From: Natranaeroarchaeum sulfidigenes
GTDB lineage: Archaea > Halobacteriota > Halobacteria > Halobacteriales > Natronoarchaeaceae
Length of the DNA: 64,000 bases
Assembly (NCBI RefSeq): GCF_017094485.1
Contig: NZ_CP064786.1
Coordinates: forward strand, 310,001 to 374,000
Direction of reading: 5' to 3'
Shown: piece by piece, positions 4,124 to 46,834 of the stretch
How positions within the stretch are numbered: the first letter of the stretch is position 1
Layout: every line of letters starts with the position of its first letter
Translations under genes and position numbers: made by a program
The notes under the pieces: generated by a model
Databases searched by the model: none
The model's input: the letters and a program-made list of their open reading frames with translations, nothing else
What the model was told of the DNA's origin: nothing

Positions 4124-4348
4124 CGTCCGGACGGAGTCTCACGCGAGCGCAGCGAAGCGTGAGGCACGTCCGGACGGAGTATCGCGTGAGCTGTAGCGAA
4201 CGCGATGCACGGGCGACCTCCGGTCGCCCGGAGATTTGAACTCGTTCAGACGTGCTCGCGTTGCTGCGCGCGTCTGATCTGCTCAAATCTCCTTTGTCGT
4301 CCTTCACGGCGCAAGCTCCTCGCTACGCTCGTCGTTTAGCGCCGTGAA
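4124..4348 (-). repeat. Array of tRNA-Arg 3'-end copies and hairpins
   Basis: On the minus strand, directly downstream of tRNA-Arg: (1) a hairpin with perfect 10-bp arms, 4303-4312 and 4339-4348; (2) a large hairpin closed by GGAGATTTGA (4230-4239) and TCAAATCTCC (4283-4292), the inverted and direct copies of the tRNA T-arm, with inner CAGACG/CGTCTG arms; (3) GGGCGACC/GGTCGCCC at 4211-4229; (4) two exact copies of the 13-nt acceptor end CGTCCGGACGGAG at 4167-4179 and 4124-4136 (native copy 4352-4364), each next to a further hairpin. No protein is encoded. See the findings for the pattern shared with other tRNAs. Confidence 0.85.
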
Positions 4349-4351
4349 GAA

Positions 4352-9269: not shown

Positions 9270-9344
9270 GGGCCCGTATCTCAGTCTGGTTAGAGAGAGC
9301 GGCTCATAACCGCTTCGTCCTTGGTTCAAATCCGAGCGGGCCCA
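9270..9344 (+). tRNA. tRNA with CAT anticodon, probably tRNA-Ile2
   Basis: Acceptor GGGCCCG pairs with CGGGCCC, discriminator A at 9344. Anticodon stem AGCGG/CCGCT encloses CTCATAA, anticodon CAT. It lacks an intron, whereas haloarchaeal elongator tRNA-Met genes I know carry one, and it lacks the A1-U72 pair and GGG/CCC anticodon stem of initiator tRNA. That favours tRNA-Ile2, whose C34 is modified to read AUA. Elongator Met remains possible. It is 75 nt. Confidence 0.85.
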
Positions 9345-9349
9345 TGTTA

Positions 9350-9457
9350 CTGTCGCGAGCTACTCCGCGAGCGACAGCTACTGGATGAGCGAGGATTTGA
9401 AGTAGAAAACGCCGAACGAAGTGAGGCGTTTGCGTAGTTCAAATCCGATCGGGCCCC
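9350..9457 (+). repeat. Hairpins and partial copy of the CAT-tRNA 3' end
   Basis: Immediately after the tRNA there is a CTGTCGC/GCGACAG hairpin (9350-9356, 9371-9377). It is followed by GGATTTGAA (9393-9401), the inverted T-arm, an inner AAACGCC/GGCGTTT stem (9407-9413, 9425-9431) around GAACGAAGTGA, and a direct copy of the T-loop and acceptor end (9437-9457, 19 of 21 positions identical to 9324-9344). It has the same organisation as the tracts after tRNA-Arg, tRNA-Lys and tRNA-Leu. Confidence 0.85.
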
Positions 9458-14512: not shown

Positions 14513-14923
14513 ATGGACTCCGACCAGATTGACGGGCGGGCGATAGCGCTGGGGAGTACCGTTGGTGGGATAACGGTAGCCGCCCCGTTGTTGCTCGCTG
14601 GTGCCCGACTGGCCGACCCGTACACGATGTTGGCAGTGGTTTCCAGTGTCGGGATCGCTGCCGGTGGAATCAGCGGTGCCGTGGCCGGGTACACGAGCTC
14701 TATCGGATTGAAGCCGATGCATGAGGGTATGATAGCCGCCATGATCGGGTTCTGCGCTGGACTGTCGATCTGGGTGGCCATCAATAGCTATCAGGGTGTA
14801 CTGCATCCTGCTGACACCGCTCTTGTCCACCTGTTTATTCTTGCACTACCGGTGACGATGGCGTTCCCATTTGTCCTTCTTGCGGGGGCCGTACTCGGGG
14901 AACGAGCGCTCTTTGCGAAGTAG
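14513..14923 (+). CDS. Membrane protein with four helices, unknown function
   Basis: A 136-residue protein with hydrophobic segments at about residues 15-32, 42-63, 77-93 and 103-125 and short polar loops; the N-terminus MDSDQIDGRAIALG is cytosolic-looking. GC and codon use return toward core values. No family was recognised. It is divergent from the nuclease gene at 14463 with about 50 bp between them, so the two promoters overlap. Confidence 0.6.
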   Translation: MDSDQIDGRAIALGSTVGGITVAAPLLLAGARLADPYTMLAVVSSVGIAAGGISGAVAGYTSSIGLKPMHEGMIAAMIGFCAGLSIWVAINSYQGVLHPADTALVHLFILALPVTMAFPFVLLAGAVLGERALFAK

Positions 14924-16424: not shown

Positions 16425-16496
16425 CGGGCCGGGACGGAGTTGAACCGAGTGGAGACGTGCTCACTACGTTGCGCGCGACTGGCAGGGTTCAACTCC
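16425..16496 (-). repeat. Copy of tRNA-Lys 3' end closing a T-arm hairpin
   Basis: 16425-16446 matches the tRNA-Lys 3' end at 16546-16567 in 21 of 22 positions. Its GGAGTTGAACC (16436-16446) pairs perfectly with GGTTCAACTCC (16486-16496), an inverted T-arm copy, around a core that reads GCGCGCAACGTAGTGAGC on the minus strand. The tRNA and copy are in the same orientation, the copy being about 100 nt downstream of the tRNA. Confidence 0.85.
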
Positions 16497-16545
16497 TTCC
16501 TACCGGTTCACTCTCCGCCTCGTTGTCACTCGACGGTTCGTTGTA

Positions 16546-25619: not shown

Positions 25620-25800
25620 CAGTGTCTCCCTGTCTCGATATCCGTTGCGTGACGGTCATTCGTTTGCACCAGTTAGTTGCAGGTCAATTGCCAGCTATCT
25701 TCTTATAGTGAGAGAACCCCGCCGTTCATGGCGAGGAGGATGTCACGTACGGAAAAACAGCCTGACGATCACCCGGCAACTTCCGGACAGAACGCCGCAG

Positions 25801-26110
25801 TCCTACTCCTCGAAGATAAACTGGCCGTCTTTTTGCACCACTTCTCCGTCCACTTCGATCTTCGAGTTCTCGCTCCGACCTTTTTTCGCTCGGGATGCGC
25901 AAGCGCACCGCTCGCGAAAAAATCTCGGCCAAAAAGCCGCTCGCTACGCTCGCGGTCCTACTCCTCGAAGATGAACTGCCCGTCTTTTTGCACCACTTCT
26001 CCGTCCACTTCGATCTTCGAGTTCTCGCTCCGACCTTTTTTCGCTCGGGATGCGCAAGCGCACCGCTCGCGAAAAAATCTCGGCCAAAAAGCCGCTCGCT
26101 ACGCTCGCGG
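25801..26110 (-). repeat. Two extra 155-bp copies of the aminopeptidase gene 3' end
   Basis: The last 75 bp of the M29 gene (26111-26185) recur at 25801-25875 (identical) and 25956-26030 (two differences). Between them are two identical 80-bp spacers (25876-25955 and 26031-26110). The period is 155 bp. On the minus strand the spacer carries GCGAGCGTAGCGAGCGG and a hairpin whose arms are TTTTTTCGC and GCGAAAAAA around a TGCGC/GCGCA stem, terminator-like in both directions. ORFs crossing this area are products of the repeat, not genes. Confidence 0.95.
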
Positions 26111-26112
26111 TC

Positions 26113-27192
26113 CTACTCCTCGAAGATAAACTGGCCGTCTTTTTGCACCACTTCTCCGTCCACTTCGATCTTCGAGTTCTCGCTCATGTCGACGATCATA
26201 TCGACGTGGACCGCGCTGTCGTTCTGTTCGTTGTCCTCGCCGACGGTATCCTCGTAGGCGCGTCCGACCGCCATGTGGACGGTATCGCCCATCTTCTCGT
26301 CGAACAGCATGTTGTAGGTGAACTGGTCGATCTCGCGGTTCATCCCGATCCCGAGTTCGCCGAGCCGACGCGCTCCTTCGTCCGTTTCGAGCACTTCGGT
26401 CAGGACCTCTTCGTTCTTCTCGGCGGCGTGGTCGACGACCTTTCCGTCCTCGAATTCGAGGTAGACGCCGGTGACCTCGCGGCCCTGATGGTAGAGCGGC
26501 TTGTCGAACAGCACCTCGCCCTCGACGCTGTCGGGGACCGGCGCGGTAAAGACCTCGCCGCCGGGGAGATTCTTTTCGCCGTAATCGTTGAGCACGGGGT
26601 TGCCCGCGACCGACATCGTGACGTCGGTGGTGTCGCCGCTTTTGATCCGGACCTCGTCGGCGGGGTCGAGAATCTCGACCATGTTGGCCTGGAACTCGCG
26701 CTGTTCGTCCCAGTCCTTGTTGACGGCGTCCCAGACGAAGTTCTCGTAGCCCTCGGTGGAGAGTTCGGCGAGCTGGGCGTTCGCGGGCGCGGGGAACTGC
26801 GTGAGACACCAGCGCTTCGAGAGCCGCTCTGCGGTGATCGGCTTCTGTGCGCGGCGGTAGGCGGCGTTGATCTCGGCATCGACATCGCTGGTCTCGGTGA
26901 CGTTTTCGTTTGCCCGGATGGCGATGTAGACGTCCGTCTCCTCGATCAGCGCTTCCGTATGCGCGGGCGTCTCGAAGTCGTCTTCCTCACTCGCGCGGAG
27001 ATACGCACGCTGGGCGCGGTCGTCGCTGGAGAGGCTGATCGGATTTGCGCCCACGTCGCCGATGACCTCGTGGAGCGCAACGACCAGGTCTTCGGCGACC
27101 GGCGGCGCGGTGATGACGACGTCGTCGCCAGCCTCCAGGTCGACGGAGTGATGTGCGATGATCTCTGCGTGCTCGCGGATTCGCGGGTCCAT
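26113..27192 (-). CDS. Aminopeptidase, M29 family
   Basis: A 359-residue protein matching the aminopeptidase T/PepS family, two-metal exopeptidases. Recognisable stretches include VVITAPPVAEDLV at the N-terminus, VYLEFEDGKVVDH, RRLGELGIGMN (metal-site Glu region), DTVHMAVGRAYED (His region) and VHVDMIVD near the C-terminus. The start ATG at 27192 was chosen from conserved MDPRIREHAEII; a longer ORF start at 27354 would cross the divergent threonine aldolase promoter. Its 3' end is the source of the 155-bp tandem repeat. It likely trims N-terminal residues from peptides in the cytosol. Confidence 0.88.
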   Translation of the reverse strand: MDPRIREHAEIIAHHSVDLEAGDDVVITAPPVAEDLVVALHEVIGDVGANPISLSSDDRAQRAYLRASEEDDFETPAHTEALIEETDVYIAIRANENVTETSDVDAEINAAYRRAQKPITAERLSKRWCLTQFPAPANAQLAELSTEGYENFVWDAVNKDWDEQREFQANMVEILDPADEVRIKSGDTTDVTMSVAGNPVLNDYGEKNLPGGEVFTAPVPDSVEGEVLFDKPLYHQGREVTGVYLEFEDGKVVDHAAEKNEEVLTEVLETDEGARRLGELGIGMNREIDQFTYNMLFDEKMGDTVHMAVGRAYEDTVGEDNEQNDSAVHVDMIVDMSENSKIEVDGEVVQKDGQFIFEE

Positions 27193-42572: not shown

Positions 42573-43496
42573 ATGAACGTCGTCTCCCTGCTCCCCTCAG
42601 CTACCGAGATCTGTTATGCCCTCGGGATCGAGCCAGTTGGCGTCTCCCACGAGTGTGACGTCCCGCCCGGGGCCACCGACCAGCCCTCGATCAACTACGC
42701 GCACGTCGATCCGACAGCCAGCAGCGGGGAGATCGACGCGCAGGTGCTCGAAGCCGAGGCCGAACACGGCGGCGTCTACGGCATCGATGTCGACGCGCTG
42801 GACCGGGCCGACCCGGACCTGATCGTCACGCAGGGGATCTGTGACGTCTGTGCGGTCGACGAGGTGCTGGTGGCCGACGCCATCGAGGAGATCGAGGCCG
42901 ATCCAGAGGTACTGACGACCGATCCCCACAGCGTGGGGGACGTGCTCGACGATATCCGGACAGTGGGCGCGGCGACGGGCCGCGAGGAGCGCGCCGCGGA
43001 ACTGGTTACCGATCTGGAGGCGCGAATCGAGCGCGTCCGGGCAGCCACCGCCGAGGTCAAAGAGCGCCCCGAGGTCGCCATCCTCGACTGGCTCGATCCC
43101 GTGATGGTTGCGGGCCACTGGATGCCCGAGCTCGTCGAGTGGGCTGGTGGGGAGTACGGACTTGCTGACAACGGCCAGCGTTCGACGCCGCGAGAGTGGA
43201 GCCAGATTATAGAGTACGACCCGGACGTGCTGATCGCCGCTCCTTGCGGGTTCGACCTCGAACAGACCTCCGAAAACCAGTCGGATCTGACCGAGCGATC
43301 GGGCTGGGCGGAACTTCGGGCGGTCGAAACGGGTCGTGTCTACGCGATGGACGGCCACCACTATGTCAATCGGCCGGGGCCGCGTCTCGTCGATACCCTC
43401 GAACACCTCGCAGGCGTGTTACACCCGGGCGTGGTGGACGCGCCCCCGGAGGACGTCGCCACGGCCTTTGGCGGGCCCGAACTGCGGACACTCTGA
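42573..43496 (+). CDS. BtuF-like cobalamin-binding protein without signal peptide
   Basis: A 307-residue periplasmic-binding-fold protein: MNVVSLLPSATEICYALG, VGVSHECDVP, PDLIVTQGICDVC, LDWLDPVMVAGHWMPELVEWAGG and a C-terminal VDTLEHLAGVLHP, all marks of the BtuF/FecB vitamin B12-binding group. The N-terminus is already the first beta strand, with no signal peptide or lipobox, so the protein is probably cytosolic. No BtuC or BtuD transporter gene is adjacent. Cobamide salvage or a redox-metal role is possible. ATG 42573 has a CGTTTAGCC box 33 nt upstream. Confidence 0.86.
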   Translation: MNVVSLLPSATEICYALGIEPVGVSHECDVPPGATDQPSINYAHVDPTASSGEIDAQVLEAEAEHGGVYGIDVDALDRADPDLIVTQGICDVCAVDEVLVADAIEEIEADPEVLTTDPHSVGDVLDDIRTVGAATGREERAAELVTDLEARIERVRAATAEVKERPEVAILDWLDPVMVAGHWMPELVEWAGGEYGLADNGQRSTPREWSQIIEYDPDVLIAAPCGFDLEQTSENQSDLTERSGWAELRAVETGRVYAMDGHHYVNRPGPRLVDTLEHLAGVLHPGVVDAPPEDVATAFGGPELRTL

Positions 43497-43544
43497 CCGA
43501 CTGGACTACAAGCCTTTTTCCCGTCGACGCCCCTCGGTACTGGT

Positions 43545-44060
43545 ATGAGCGAACTGACTGCGACGATCCACACGAACCGCGGCGACATCGAGGTCGAACT
43601 CTACGAGGACAAAAAACCCGAGACAGTCGGGAACTTCGTCGGCCTCGCCACTGGCGAGAAAGAGTGGGAAGATCCAGAGACGGGCGAGACGATCGACGGC
43701 GAACCCCTCTACGACGACGTCGAGTTCCACCGCGTCATCGACGGCTTCATGCTCCAGACCGGTGACCCAACCGGTACCGGCCGCGGTGGCCCGGGCTACA
43801 CCTTCGACGACGAGTTCGACGACGAACTCTCCCACGATGGCCCCGGCATCCTCTCGATGGCGAATCGTGGCCCCGACACGAACGGCTCGCAGTTTTTCAT
43901 CACACTGGATGCCCAGCCCCACCTCGACGGGAAACACTCCGTCTTCGGGCAAGTCGTCGACGGGATGGACGTCGTCGAGGAAATCGGCAACCTGCCGACT
44001 GATCGGAACGACAAGCCCCAGAAGGAAGCTGTCATGGAGTCGGTAACGATCCACGACTGA
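43545..44060 (+). CDS. Cyclophilin-type peptidyl-prolyl isomerase
   Basis: A 171-residue cyclophilin: TIHTNRGDIEVELYEDKKPETVGNFV, the active-site run FHRVIDGFMLQTGDPTGTG, then SMANRGPDTNGSQFFIT and HSVFGQVVDGMDVV. It speeds cis-trans isomerisation of prolyl bonds during folding. It appears cytosolic, with no signal. ATG 43545 is well supported. It lies just before a ferredoxin gene. Confidence 0.95.
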   Translation: MSELTATIHTNRGDIEVELYEDKKPETVGNFVGLATGEKEWEDPETGETIDGEPLYDDVEFHRVIDGFMLQTGDPTGTGRGGPGYTFDDEFDDELSHDGPGILSMANRGPDTNGSQFFITLDAQPHLDGKHSVFGQVVDGMDVVEEIGNLPTDRNDKPQKEAVMESVTIHD

Positions 44061-44101
44061 GACCGTAAGCCGAAAGACACTCCGATTCCTGATTCTATCC
44101 A

Positions 44102-44446
44102 ATGAGCGATCTCGACGCCGAACTGCAGGACCCGTCTACGTTCGGGGACAGCGATGCGCCGCCAGCCGATGAGAAGCCGTACAAGATAATCTTCGACGCC
44201 AGCGCGTGTTTCGGTGCCGGCAAGTGCGCCGAGGTGGCGAAAAACTGGGAAATGGACATCAAAAGCGGGATGGCAAAGCCCCGATCGTACTACATCGGCG
44301 AGGACGACCTCGACGAGAACGTCCGTGCTGCGGAGGTCTGTCCTGCCAACAAGGGCGCTGGCTGTATCTATGTCATCGACCGCCGCACCGACGAGGAGGT
44401 CGCGCCGGATCCACATGGCGACGGAACGTTCAGTCTGGAGCGGTAA
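44102..44446 (+). CDS. Ferredoxin-like iron-sulfur protein
   Basis: A 114-residue protein. CFGAGKC and, about 40 residues later, ENVRAAEVCPANKGAGC carry the Cys ligands for a single [3Fe-4S] or [4Fe-4S] cluster of the monocluster type; the usual fourth ligand position is not clear, so a 3Fe-4S cluster is likely. The negatively charged N-terminus is typical of haloarchaeal ferredoxin-like proteins. It could serve the ferredoxin reductases in the window, but there is no direct evidence. Confidence 0.75.
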   Translation: MSDLDAELQDPSTFGDSDAPPADEKPYKIIFDASACFGAGKCAEVAKNWEMDIKSGMAKPRSYYIGEDDLDENVRAAEVCPANKGAGCIYVIDRRTDEEVAPDPHGDGTFSLER

Positions 44447-44501
44447 GTCGGGTAACGAAACCCACTTGTCATAGTGGGCAGTACCGACGAGTGCATCCTG
44501 C

Positions 44502-44586
44502 GCGAGGGTGGCTGAGCCAGGCCAAAGGCGGCGGGCTTAAGACCCGCTCTCGTAGGAGTTCCTGGGTTCGAATCCCAGCCCTCGCA
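44502..44586 (+). tRNA. tRNA-Leu(TAA)
   Basis: Acceptor GCGAGGG pairs with CCCTCGC, discriminator A at 44586. The anticodon stem GCGGG/CCCGC holds CTTAAGA, anticodon TAA (Leu, UUA/UUG codons). The long variable arm (TCTCGTAGGAGTTC) is the class II form of tRNA-Leu. It is 85 nt. Two exact copies of its last 20 nt follow downstream. Confidence 0.96.
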
Positions 44587-44866
44587 CTCGTCACGAGCAT
44601 ATTCGCGAGTGACGAGTACGTAATGTGGGATTCGAAGAGGCGAGTCGCAGCGCGAACGAATGTGAGCGACCGTCTGGACGTGTTCGAATCCCAGCCCTCG
44701 CATTTTCCGGCTCGACCGTACGGGAGAGCCGTGAAAATCTAACAATGGGATTCGAGCAGACGAGTCGCAGCGCGAACGACTGTGAGCGACCGTCTCGACG
44801 TGTTCGAATCCCAGCCCTCGCATTTTCCGGCTCGAACGGACGTGAGAGGCGTGAAAACCTGTGTTG
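44586..44866 (+). repeat. Two tandem 120-bp units carrying tRNA-Leu 3'-end copies
   Basis: A hairpin (ACTCGTCAC 44586-44594, GTGACGAGT 44609-44617) follows the tRNA. Units 44627-44746 and 44747-44866 then repeat with about ten mismatches in the first 112 positions. Each begins GGGATTCGA, an inverted T-arm, contains AGCGCGAACGA and TGTGAGCGACCGTCT, and then has the exact 20-nt tRNA 3' end TTCGAATCCCAGCCCTCGCA (44683-44702 and 44803-44822; native 44567-44586), followed by a TTTTCCGGCTC...GAAAA hairpin. No gene lies here. The right unit abuts the stop of the pilin-like gene. Confidence 0.92.
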
Positions 44867-44867
44867 G

Positions 44868-45872
44868 TTAGCAGGACTCCCCATCGATCGTTGAGTCGCC
44901 ACTGCAATCGATACGGGCATCCTCGATATCTGTCCCCCCACGGATGTGGCTATCATCGAGATTGAGCTCCGTATTGCCAGCGGTATCGATTACGTCCCCG
45001 CCGATCTGACTCTCTTCGTCCAGGTCGACGGTTCCCTCCGCGCTAACATCGCCGTGAATCGTTGCCTGATCGGCCTCCTCGGCCATGTCGATATCTCCTC
45101 CAGCATCTACATTGCCGTGAATTTCGCTGTCCTCCTGGATTTCGACTTCACCGTCGGACGTGACATCGCCACCAATCTCTCCCCCACCATCTACCTCAAC
45201 TTCGTCGTCGGACACAATATCGTCTCCAATCAGATACCCACCATCAACATCAACTTCATCGGTAATGTAGACGTCACCGATCAATATCCCATCCTCTTCG
45301 ATTTCTAACTCCGCGTCCCAGCGATCCCCGGAGGAGCCGATGTCACAGGCGACAGTATCGCCTTCGTCAATCTCGATATCGTCGTCTTCGCGATCGATAT
45401 CGTACGACTCACAATTGTCATCCGCAAGTGTCACCTCCTCCCCGCGCAGTTCGTACGAGTCGATAATCGCCGACCGGGACTCCGTGTCGTCGGTCCAGAT
45501 CACCTGAATCGTATCGCCCTCTTCGAGGTCCTCCCCGTCACAGTACGATAGGATCGTCTCGTCGCCTGTGCTGATAGCACCGTTCCCTCCCCAGTCTTCA
45601 CATTGGGTCCCGTCGTCGAGCTGGAACTCGATGTTGCCGGAATCGACCTCCTCACCGGTATCCATGACGACTTGCACGCCAACGCCTGCCGCCCCCTCCT
45701 CAATATATGCCATCTCGGTGTCTGGTGGGGCCTGGGTCGGCGAGAATCCCAGGACGAACGCGCCGATCACCGCGGCCATCGTGACGAAGATGCCGATCAT
45801 CAGCACGACACCGATCACCGGGGAGACGCCGCGGTCATCACCGGGAAGTGATGATTTTCTGGGGGAAGACAT
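44868..45872 (-). CDS. Type IV pilin-like protein with bactofilin-like beta-helix domain
   Basis: A 334-residue protein. The N-terminus MSSPRKSSLPGDDRGVSPVIGVVLMIGIFVTMAAVIGAFVLGF is a class III signal followed by the pilin helix; cleavage before GVSP is expected by the archaeal prepilin peptidase. After a beta-rich segment (residues about 55-200), repeated short blocks such as GGDVTSDGEVEI, HGNVDAGGDIDM and HGDVSAEGTVDL resemble bactofilin/polymer-forming right-handed beta-helix repeats. The fusion suggests a surface filament with a self-assembling head. A TATA-like TTTATTACT lies about 25 nt before the ATG. Confidence 0.75.
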   Translation of the reverse strand: MSSPRKSSLPGDDRGVSPVIGVVLMIGIFVTMAAVIGAFVLGFSPTQAPPDTEMAYIEEGAAGVGVQVVMDTGEEVDSGNIEFQLDDGTQCEDWGGNGAISTGDETILSYCDGEDLEEGDTIQVIWTDDTESRSAIIDSYELRGEEVTLADDNCESYDIDREDDDIEIDEGDTVACDIGSSGDRWDAELEIEEDGILIGDVYITDEVDVDGGYLIGDDIVSDDEVEVDGGGEIGGDVTSDGEVEIQEDSEIHGNVDAGGDIDMAEEADQATIHGDVSAEGTVDLDEESQIGGDVIDTAGNTELNLDDSHIRGGTDIEDARIDCSGDSTIDGESC

Positions 45873-45934
45873 ACAACCTACATATTATTGGACAGTAATA
45901 AATCCCGGCCGAGGCCCTGCGGTCGCCTTGACCT

Positions 45935-46834
45935 CTACAGCGCTTTGACCCAGCCCGGAACCGACGCCATGCCGTCTTTGTCCTCCCAGCCGTTCTCGCG
46001 GAGGTACTCGGGAAGCGTGGTGAACTCGAAGCCAAATCGCTCGGGAAGCGCGTCGATGTCTGCCTCGTAGCCGACCTCGTTGAACCACTCGCACATGACG
46101 GTGAACTCCTCGCCGAAGCTCTCGTAGGCGTCTTCGATGGGGACGTGGTACGGCTCGACGTCGAGGCCGGTCACCTCCGAGAGGACGGCCGCAGTCTCGG
46201 CGAGCGTCAGTTCGTCGCCCGCGAGGTCGATGCGCTCCCCGACAAACTCGTCAGGGCGCTCGAAGGCGACCGCCGCGGCGTGGCCCACGTCGTCGACGTC
46301 GATCATCTGCAGCGGGACGCCCTCGGCGAGCGGGAGCGCGATGGTGCCGTCCTCGACGATGTCCTCGGCGAACGCTTCGAGGTTCTGGAAGAAGAACACG
46401 GGCTGGAGCGTGGTCAGCGGGAGATCGAGCTCCTGTGCGTGCGTCTCGATCTCGTCTGCCGAGTCGAAGTGGGGGATGCCGGTGTCTTTGTGATGGCTGC
46501 CGACGCCGCTGAAGACGAACTGCTCGACGCCTTCCTCGTTGGCGACATCTGCGAGGTTCTTGCCCTGTTGCACCTGGGCCTCGTAGCCCTGTGTCCAGAA
46601 GTTCGTGACTGCGAAGACGGCATCGGCCGTGGCGACGTGCGCCCGGAACGAGTCGGGGTCGTTCAGGTTCCCCTCGACCATCTCGACGCCCCGATCCGCA
46701 AGGGCCACTGCCGCGTCACTGTCGGCGTCACGCGTAAGGCCGAGCACGTCGAACGATTCCTCGGAAGCGAGGAGGTGGTCAACTACGGCCCCGCCCTGAT
46801 TGCCGGTCGCGCCGGTGACGAGCACGCTCGTCAT
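45935..46834 (-). CDS. NmrA-family NAD(P)-binding protein
   Basis: A 299-residue atypical SDR: VLVTGATGNQGGAVVDHLL (GxxGxxG), GLTRDADSD, and the long substrate half with QFVFSGVGSHHKDTGIPHF and VPLQMIDVDDVGHAAAVAF. The Tyr-x-x-x-Lys pair is absent, as in NmrA-like and HSCARG-like redox sensors. It may sense NADPH rather than catalyse. It is divergent from the cupin gene, with a palindromic intergenic region. Confidence 0.88.
   Translation of the reverse strand: MTSVLVTGATGNQGGAVVDHLLASEESFDVLGLTRDADSDAAVALADRGVEMVEGNLNDPDSFRAHVATADAVFAVTNFWTQGYEAQVQQGKNLADVANEEGVEQFVFSGVGSHHKDTGIPHFDSADEIETHAQELDLPLTTLQPVFFFQNLEAFAEDIVEDGTIALPLAEGVPLQMIDVDDVGHAAAVAFERPDEFVGERIDLAGDELTLAETAAVLSEVTGLDVEPYHVPIEDAYESFGEEFTVMCEWFNEVGYEADIDALPERFGFEFTTLPEYLRENGWEDKDGMASVPGWVKAL

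Follow-up and report, generated by a model that had tools for sequence, protein, structure and literature searches.

Hairpin units bounded by copies of the T-arm follow tRNA genes across an order of haloarchaea

Introduction

Why should a tRNA gene be followed by tandem units that each reproduce the 3' end of that same tRNA? The question is raised by tRNA-Leu(UAA) of Natranaeroarchaeum sulfidigenes, which lies in a window of 64,000 nucleotides (contig NZ_CP064786.1, positions 310,001 to 374,000), the whole stretch of DNA analysed here. A preliminary description of the locus proposed a dedicated element as opposed to scars of integrase activity. tRNA 3' ends are the usual targets of archaeal integrases, which leave direct copies there, and related reviews cover integrase att sites alone (PMC8371274). 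We found no published description of the units in the open-access literature and no Rfam family either.

Results

The anchor gene, tRNA-Leu(TAA), occupies 44502..44586 (ARAGORN; Rfam RF00005, 51.5 bits), and behind it stand two tandem units of ~120 bp, each reading, in order, a T-rich hairpin (module H1), an inverted T-arm, a 46-nt core hairpin and tRNA positions 54-73 copied exactly, all on the plus strand. In unit 1, H1 stands directly 3' of the tRNA (CTCGTCAC...GTGACGAG; 44587..44625; inverted repeat and unit parsing) and is followed by the inverted T-arm TGGGATTCGAA, the reverse complement of tRNA positions 54-64 (44626..44636; unit parsing), by a core with a tandem G.A mismatch in ...GCGCGAACGAATGTGAGCG... 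(44637..44682; GA hairpin detected at 44651-44668) and by the direct copy (44683..44702; direct-repeat family and unit parsing). Unit 2 consists of its own H1 (TTTTCCGGCTC...GAGCCGTGAAAA; 44703..44745; congener flank comparison and unit parsing), the inverted T-arm TGGGATTCGAG (44746..44756; unit parsing), a core closely related to that of unit 1 (44757..44802; repeat search, parsing and core clustering) and a second direct copy (44803..44822; direct-repeat family), so that both exact copies of the tRNA 3' end lie where the preliminary description had placed them. A trailing H1-like hairpin (44823..44862, with a GA hairpin at 44831-44848) resembles the H1 of unit 2 (blastn, 237-274 versus 1-38, 87% identity) and is the remnant of a further unit. 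Repeat searches returned the same architecture: the 21-mer GTTCGAATCCCAGCCCTCGCA is present three times (44566, 44682 and 44802), the inverted arm GGGATTCGA twice (44627 and 44747), two 115-nt copies with starts 120 bp apart are 91% identical, and TRF reports a period of 120 over 44626-44857. In an Rfam scan of 43000-46000 only the tRNA reached the gathering score, with two sub-threshold matches elsewhere.

The same layout, each time with its own arm sequence, was found behind three more tRNAs of the window. The unit behind tRNA-Met(CAT) (9270-9344) comprises H1, GAGGATTTGAA, a core and a T copy (9345..9457, plus strand) and is absent from the congeneric genome G046; that of tRNA-Lys(TTT) (16425..16545, minus strand) has the arm AAGGAGTTGAA, which matches its own T-arm TTCAACTCC; and that of tRNA-Arg(GCG) (4221..4351, minus strand) has a direct copy limited to the T-arm half, after which come acceptor-only copies (4124-4211). 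These last belong to a second class, in which copying is confined to the end of the acceptor strand; the copies are direct, in some cases also inverted, and flank a hairpin whose strand polarity is opposite (for example TGGACTCGTCG...TCGCAAAC..GTTTGCTCA...CGACGAGTCCA). Further members of this class stand behind tRNA-Ala(CGC), Asp, Gly(TCC) and Arg(TCT) in this genome (L007, L025, L008 and L001).

We then took the 44 Rfam tRNA matches of this genome (G000) with their flanks. A direct copy of the last 20 nt (up to 3 mismatches) lies within 400 bp downstream of 21 of the 44 tRNAs and an inverted T-arm 12-mer (up to 2 mismatches) within the same distance of 25, while reversed-sequence controls over the same flanks gave 0 direct and 0 inverted copies. 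At all 21 direct-copy loci the tRNA's own 3' end fits the flank better than that of every other tRNA. All pattern sites of the genome stand behind a tRNA, including one at 14839 behind tRNA-Gln(CTG), which is not among the 44. Units are missing behind about half of the tRNAs, and which tRNAs these are differs between congeners; Leu(CAG) and Ser(GCT), which run into ribosomal-protein operons, lack one and are 97% collinear between G000 and G046.

Beyond this genome, we searched for the strict arm-core-arm pattern GATTYGAA-N(26-56)-GTTCRAATC. Within the order, 179 of 195 genomes contain it, as do 149 of the 157 good-quality ones, and 61 of 66 genera are represented; the backwards pattern had zero matches in every genome listed. 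In the rest of the phylum, 4 of ~125 genomes had one or two matches, a chance-like level. Units follow tRNA-Leu(TAA) at orthologous loci in Natrinema, Natronolimnohabitans, Halopiger, Haloferax, Halobellus, Halogeometricum, Halorubrum, Halonotius, Halarchaeum and Salinigranum, and the orthologous locus is without units in Halocatena marina and in Haloquadratum walsbyi J07HQW1. Some tandem arrays contain three to five units. The pattern is thus an order-wide feature of which tRNA-Leu(UAA) is a local case, and the controls in this genome, together with the scans of order and phylum, rule out a local chance duplication. The dedicated element of the preliminary description is borne out as a recurrent, defined structure; its active mobility is a property that we infer.

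Several observations accompany this distribution. The strict pattern is missing from the nearly complete genomes G064, G134, G128, G140, G179, G060, G010 and G096 of the order, and some pattern-free genomes are congeneric with unit-rich ones. Megaplasmids of Haladaptatus, Halococcus and Natrinema (L279-L282) carry extra tRNA-Leu(TAA)-like genes without downstream units. At tRNA-Leu(TAA) of Haloferax prahovense (L047), the inverted arm reproduces the reverse complement of the tRNA 3' end without a mismatch (~24 bp with flank), which it does only imperfectly in other Haloferax; the L047 arm looks as though a hairpin template had recently corrected it.

In the mean of three genomes, the direct copy matches the tRNA with an identity of 0.86-1.00 at positions 60-73, 0.7-0.9 at 53-59 and ~0.5 beyond 73. 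One point of the preliminary description is corrected: the direct copy runs from position 53/54 to 73, the inverted copy from 54 to ~63 only; the two meet at T54 and form arms of ~9-10 bp. Across a parsed set of 160 units at 107 loci, a hairpin with tandem GA/GA mismatches occurs on the tRNA strand in 82 of 144 H1 modules and in 86 of 141 cores, against 2 and 0 of the reverse TC/TC type and ~3 in shuffles, and RNA folding is more stable for the tRNA strand than for the opposite one (H1 48:10, p 1e-6; H2 51:13, p 4e-8); many modules are homologous, so that neither the mismatch nor the folding counts are independent, but the polarity is unmistakable. Given that the GA mismatch is almost restricted to the tRNA strand, one strand must be recognised, as RNA or as single-stranded DNA. 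Mismatches in the arms are A.C in 41 cases and G.T in 35, with no excess of G.U, and nothing therefore points to arms kept as RNA pairs; single mismatches inside the H1 and core stems are too few to separate RNA from DNA selection. A kink-turn was considered and rejected, the tandem GA lying in a symmetric 2x2 loop without a 3-nt bulge.

Units are modular. Arms match the tRNA that they follow, while cores are common to several tRNA types: as the preliminary description had expected, cores cluster by similarity, with clusters spanning different tRNA types, the largest of which holds 11 units at 6 types. H1 modules are mostly tied to one tRNA, yet common to different species; at Glu(UUC), H1 is identical between species and the core differs. 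Within arrays, 5 pairs of units share H1 and differ in core and 5 differ in H1 and share the core, and H1 and core modules thus shuffle independently. CRISPR-like growth, in which a repeat is duplicated with a new core, had been suggested by early tandem cases and was rejected, as the two types of pair are equally frequent.

Turnover of whole units is visible within the genus. Comparing flanks of G000 and G046 by blastn, we found collinear DNA that is offset, at the end nearest the tRNA, by roughly the length of a unit. At no fewer than seven loci one of the two genomes has a whole unit (97-119 bp) that the other lacks, with occupied/empty pairs at Cys (+97 bp), His (+116), Val(UAC) (+110), Gly(CCC) (+104), Leu(UAA) (+116), Ser(GGA) (+119) and Val(CAC) (+107). 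Behind tRNA-Leu(UAA) of G046 only the second unit is present, its H1 adjoining the tRNA directly, and module order differs between the two genomes at Ser(CGA), Ser(GGA) and His. The direction of these differences is mostly unpolarised; at Gly(CCC), a related H1 in a third genome, G054, suggests a loss in G046.

Elsewhere in the window (25792-26185, minus strand), the 3' end of an M29-type aminopeptidase gene, comprising its last ~72 nt with the stop codon, occurs three times with a period of 155 bp and 97% identity, the copies being separated by a GA hairpin with T5 and by a T-run/A-run hairpin; in G046 the GA hairpin is present and the 3' end is single-copy. This gene is the sole case of its kind in the window, and we rejected the GA hairpin as a general gene terminator in this genome.

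Discussion

Our preferred reading, to which we tentatively assign a probability of about 0.45, is that the units are non-coding, modular cassettes and that recombination at tRNA T-arms exchanges them, with a mobility that we infer. Exchange would take place at the T-arm sequence, at G53^TTC and its inverted partner, and the recognised form would be a hairpin of tRNA-strand DNA, acted upon by a putative enzyme in trans. New units would be placed next to the tRNA, which would play the role of attI in a layout like that of integron arrays, and because each unit brings its own copy of positions 54-73, the tRNA would stay intact on gain or loss. However, the integron integrase model TIGR02249 stayed below cut-off in all six genomes searched, no excised form was seen, and two tested core patterns were absent from viral collections. 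Every genome searched encodes PF00589 integrases, but their numbers do not track those of units: the unit-rich G012 and G039 have 4 and 5, the pattern-free G064 and G134 have 9 and 14. Dosage of integrases or Y1 transposases, neither of which correlates with unit counts, was accordingly rejected as an explanation. Gain and loss are also mostly unpolarised, with Gly(CCC) pointing to loss, and homologous recombination at the 20-nt direct repeats could delete, duplicate and shuffle units as well. Such recombination could account for a large part of within-locus turnover, but not for cores common to different loci or for polar hairpins.

The polarity of the hairpins would also be expected if they acted as RNA, as 3'-trailer structures of the pre-tRNA (terminators, 3'-processing or decay signals) selected on the transcript, with their variation reflecting turnover of redundant terminators. 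This is consistent with the better folding of the sense strand, with T-rich sequence after each tRNA end and each copy, with the lack of units at Leu(CAG) and Ser(GCT), and with the same GA hairpin followed by T5 behind the aminopeptidase stop codon. In Haloferax volcanii, moreover, termination sites have hairpins nearby, and two 3' ends lie downstream of tRNA-Pro (PMC7237163). Strand polarity and absence from operons are thereby explained, but arms that copy the host tRNA and the exact copy of 54-73 are not; the arm mismatches show no G.U excess as expected under selection on RNA pairs, and about half of the tRNAs do without units, in sets that differ between congeners. We regard an explanation by function at the RNA level as unlikely. 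The arms would be better accounted for by a mutational process, in which template switching during replication or repair at the palindromic T-arm would produce both inverted and direct copies of the tRNA end, to be built into arrays by unequal recombination, with no mobility and no function. Copies do alternate direct, inverted and direct, arms always come from the local tRNA, the perfected arm of Haloferax prahovense is what quasi-palindrome correction would produce, and the aminopeptidase 3' end with its GA hairpin is triplicated in this genome and single-copy in the congener. Template switching nevertheless predicts neither conserved, strand-polar GA hairpins nor core types common to several tRNA loci, neither the exact end at position 73 nor, T-arms being universal, restriction to one archaeal order, and we judge it to be quite unlikely.

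Attachment-site scars of proviruses or integrative plasmids, the alternative that the preliminary description had set aside, we consider very improbable. Use of tRNA 3' ends by integrases (PMC8371274) and the PF00589 integrases in every genome searched would fit such scars, but these would carry no inverted arm, no conserved core and no runs of three to five tandem units, and integrase counts do not follow unit counts. The two tested core patterns had 0 and 1 matches in IMG/VR, a chance level, and blastn of the window unit against phage records gave no match; a scan with a generic AT-rich viral pattern was uninformative. With nothing real in the viral searches and no units behind the plasmid tRNA-Leu genes, a viral or plasmid origin was rejected.

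A structure that stands behind about half of the tRNA genes, is conserved order-wide and turns over within a genus must be one of three things: a functional part of tRNA expression, a recombination system that propagates itself, or what an unusual mutational process has left behind. Each would be new, and all three answers are testable in Haloferax volcanii. The outcome bears on why tRNA 3' ends so often serve as integration sites in haloarchaea.

Among known systems, duplications left by tyrosine integrases (SNJ2, pNOB8 and SSV types) share with the tRNA units the target region and a direct 3'-end copy that restores the tRNA. In contrast, the inserts described here are ~100 bp long, gene-free and tandem, with an inverted T-arm and conserved hairpins; they are short hairpin units in which no remnants of viral or plasmid genes were found. 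REP/BIME and IS200/IS605-type elements are short hairpins without coding content, which frequently occur in clusters and whose mismatches are specific to one strand. The tRNA units are likewise strand-specific imperfect hairpins, but they are bounded by tRNA-specific direct and inverted copies, and the Y1 (HUH) transposase profile PF01797 had no match in G000 or in the unit-bearing G072, G146 and G139. CRISPR arrays alternate repeat-like and variable segments, grow at one end, and have inverted repeats at segment ends. The alternation and the inverted repeats at segment ends recur in tRNA-unit arrays, as may growth at one end; their cores, however, are hairpins of a few recurrent types and not foreign spacers, and H1 and core vary independently.

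Integrons have a layout close to that of the cassettes that we favour. Their attC sites act as folded single strands, 57-142 nt long and strand-selective, whose ends are complementary over 9-11 nt, and the preferred place of insertion by IntI is the proximal attI (PMC2727003). Given that no IntI exceeded the TIGR02249 cut-off in six genomes, including G000 and the unit-rich G012, G039 and G154, and that units of 97-119 bp hold H1, arm, core and T copy only and no gene, the tRNA units are not integrons; they also differ in having a tRNA gene as anchor, many anchors per genome and arms that are different for each tRNA. The likeness lies in units that end in an imperfect, strand-selective hairpin with complementary ends, in gain or loss beside a fixed anchor, and in reordering. 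A stronger form of the comparison, which we think rather unlikely, would be a gene-free, integron-like system with many parallel tRNA anchors, in which single-stranded hairpin cassettes would be inserted, excised and re-cored by a putative host enzyme, and which would have been kept through the history of the order.
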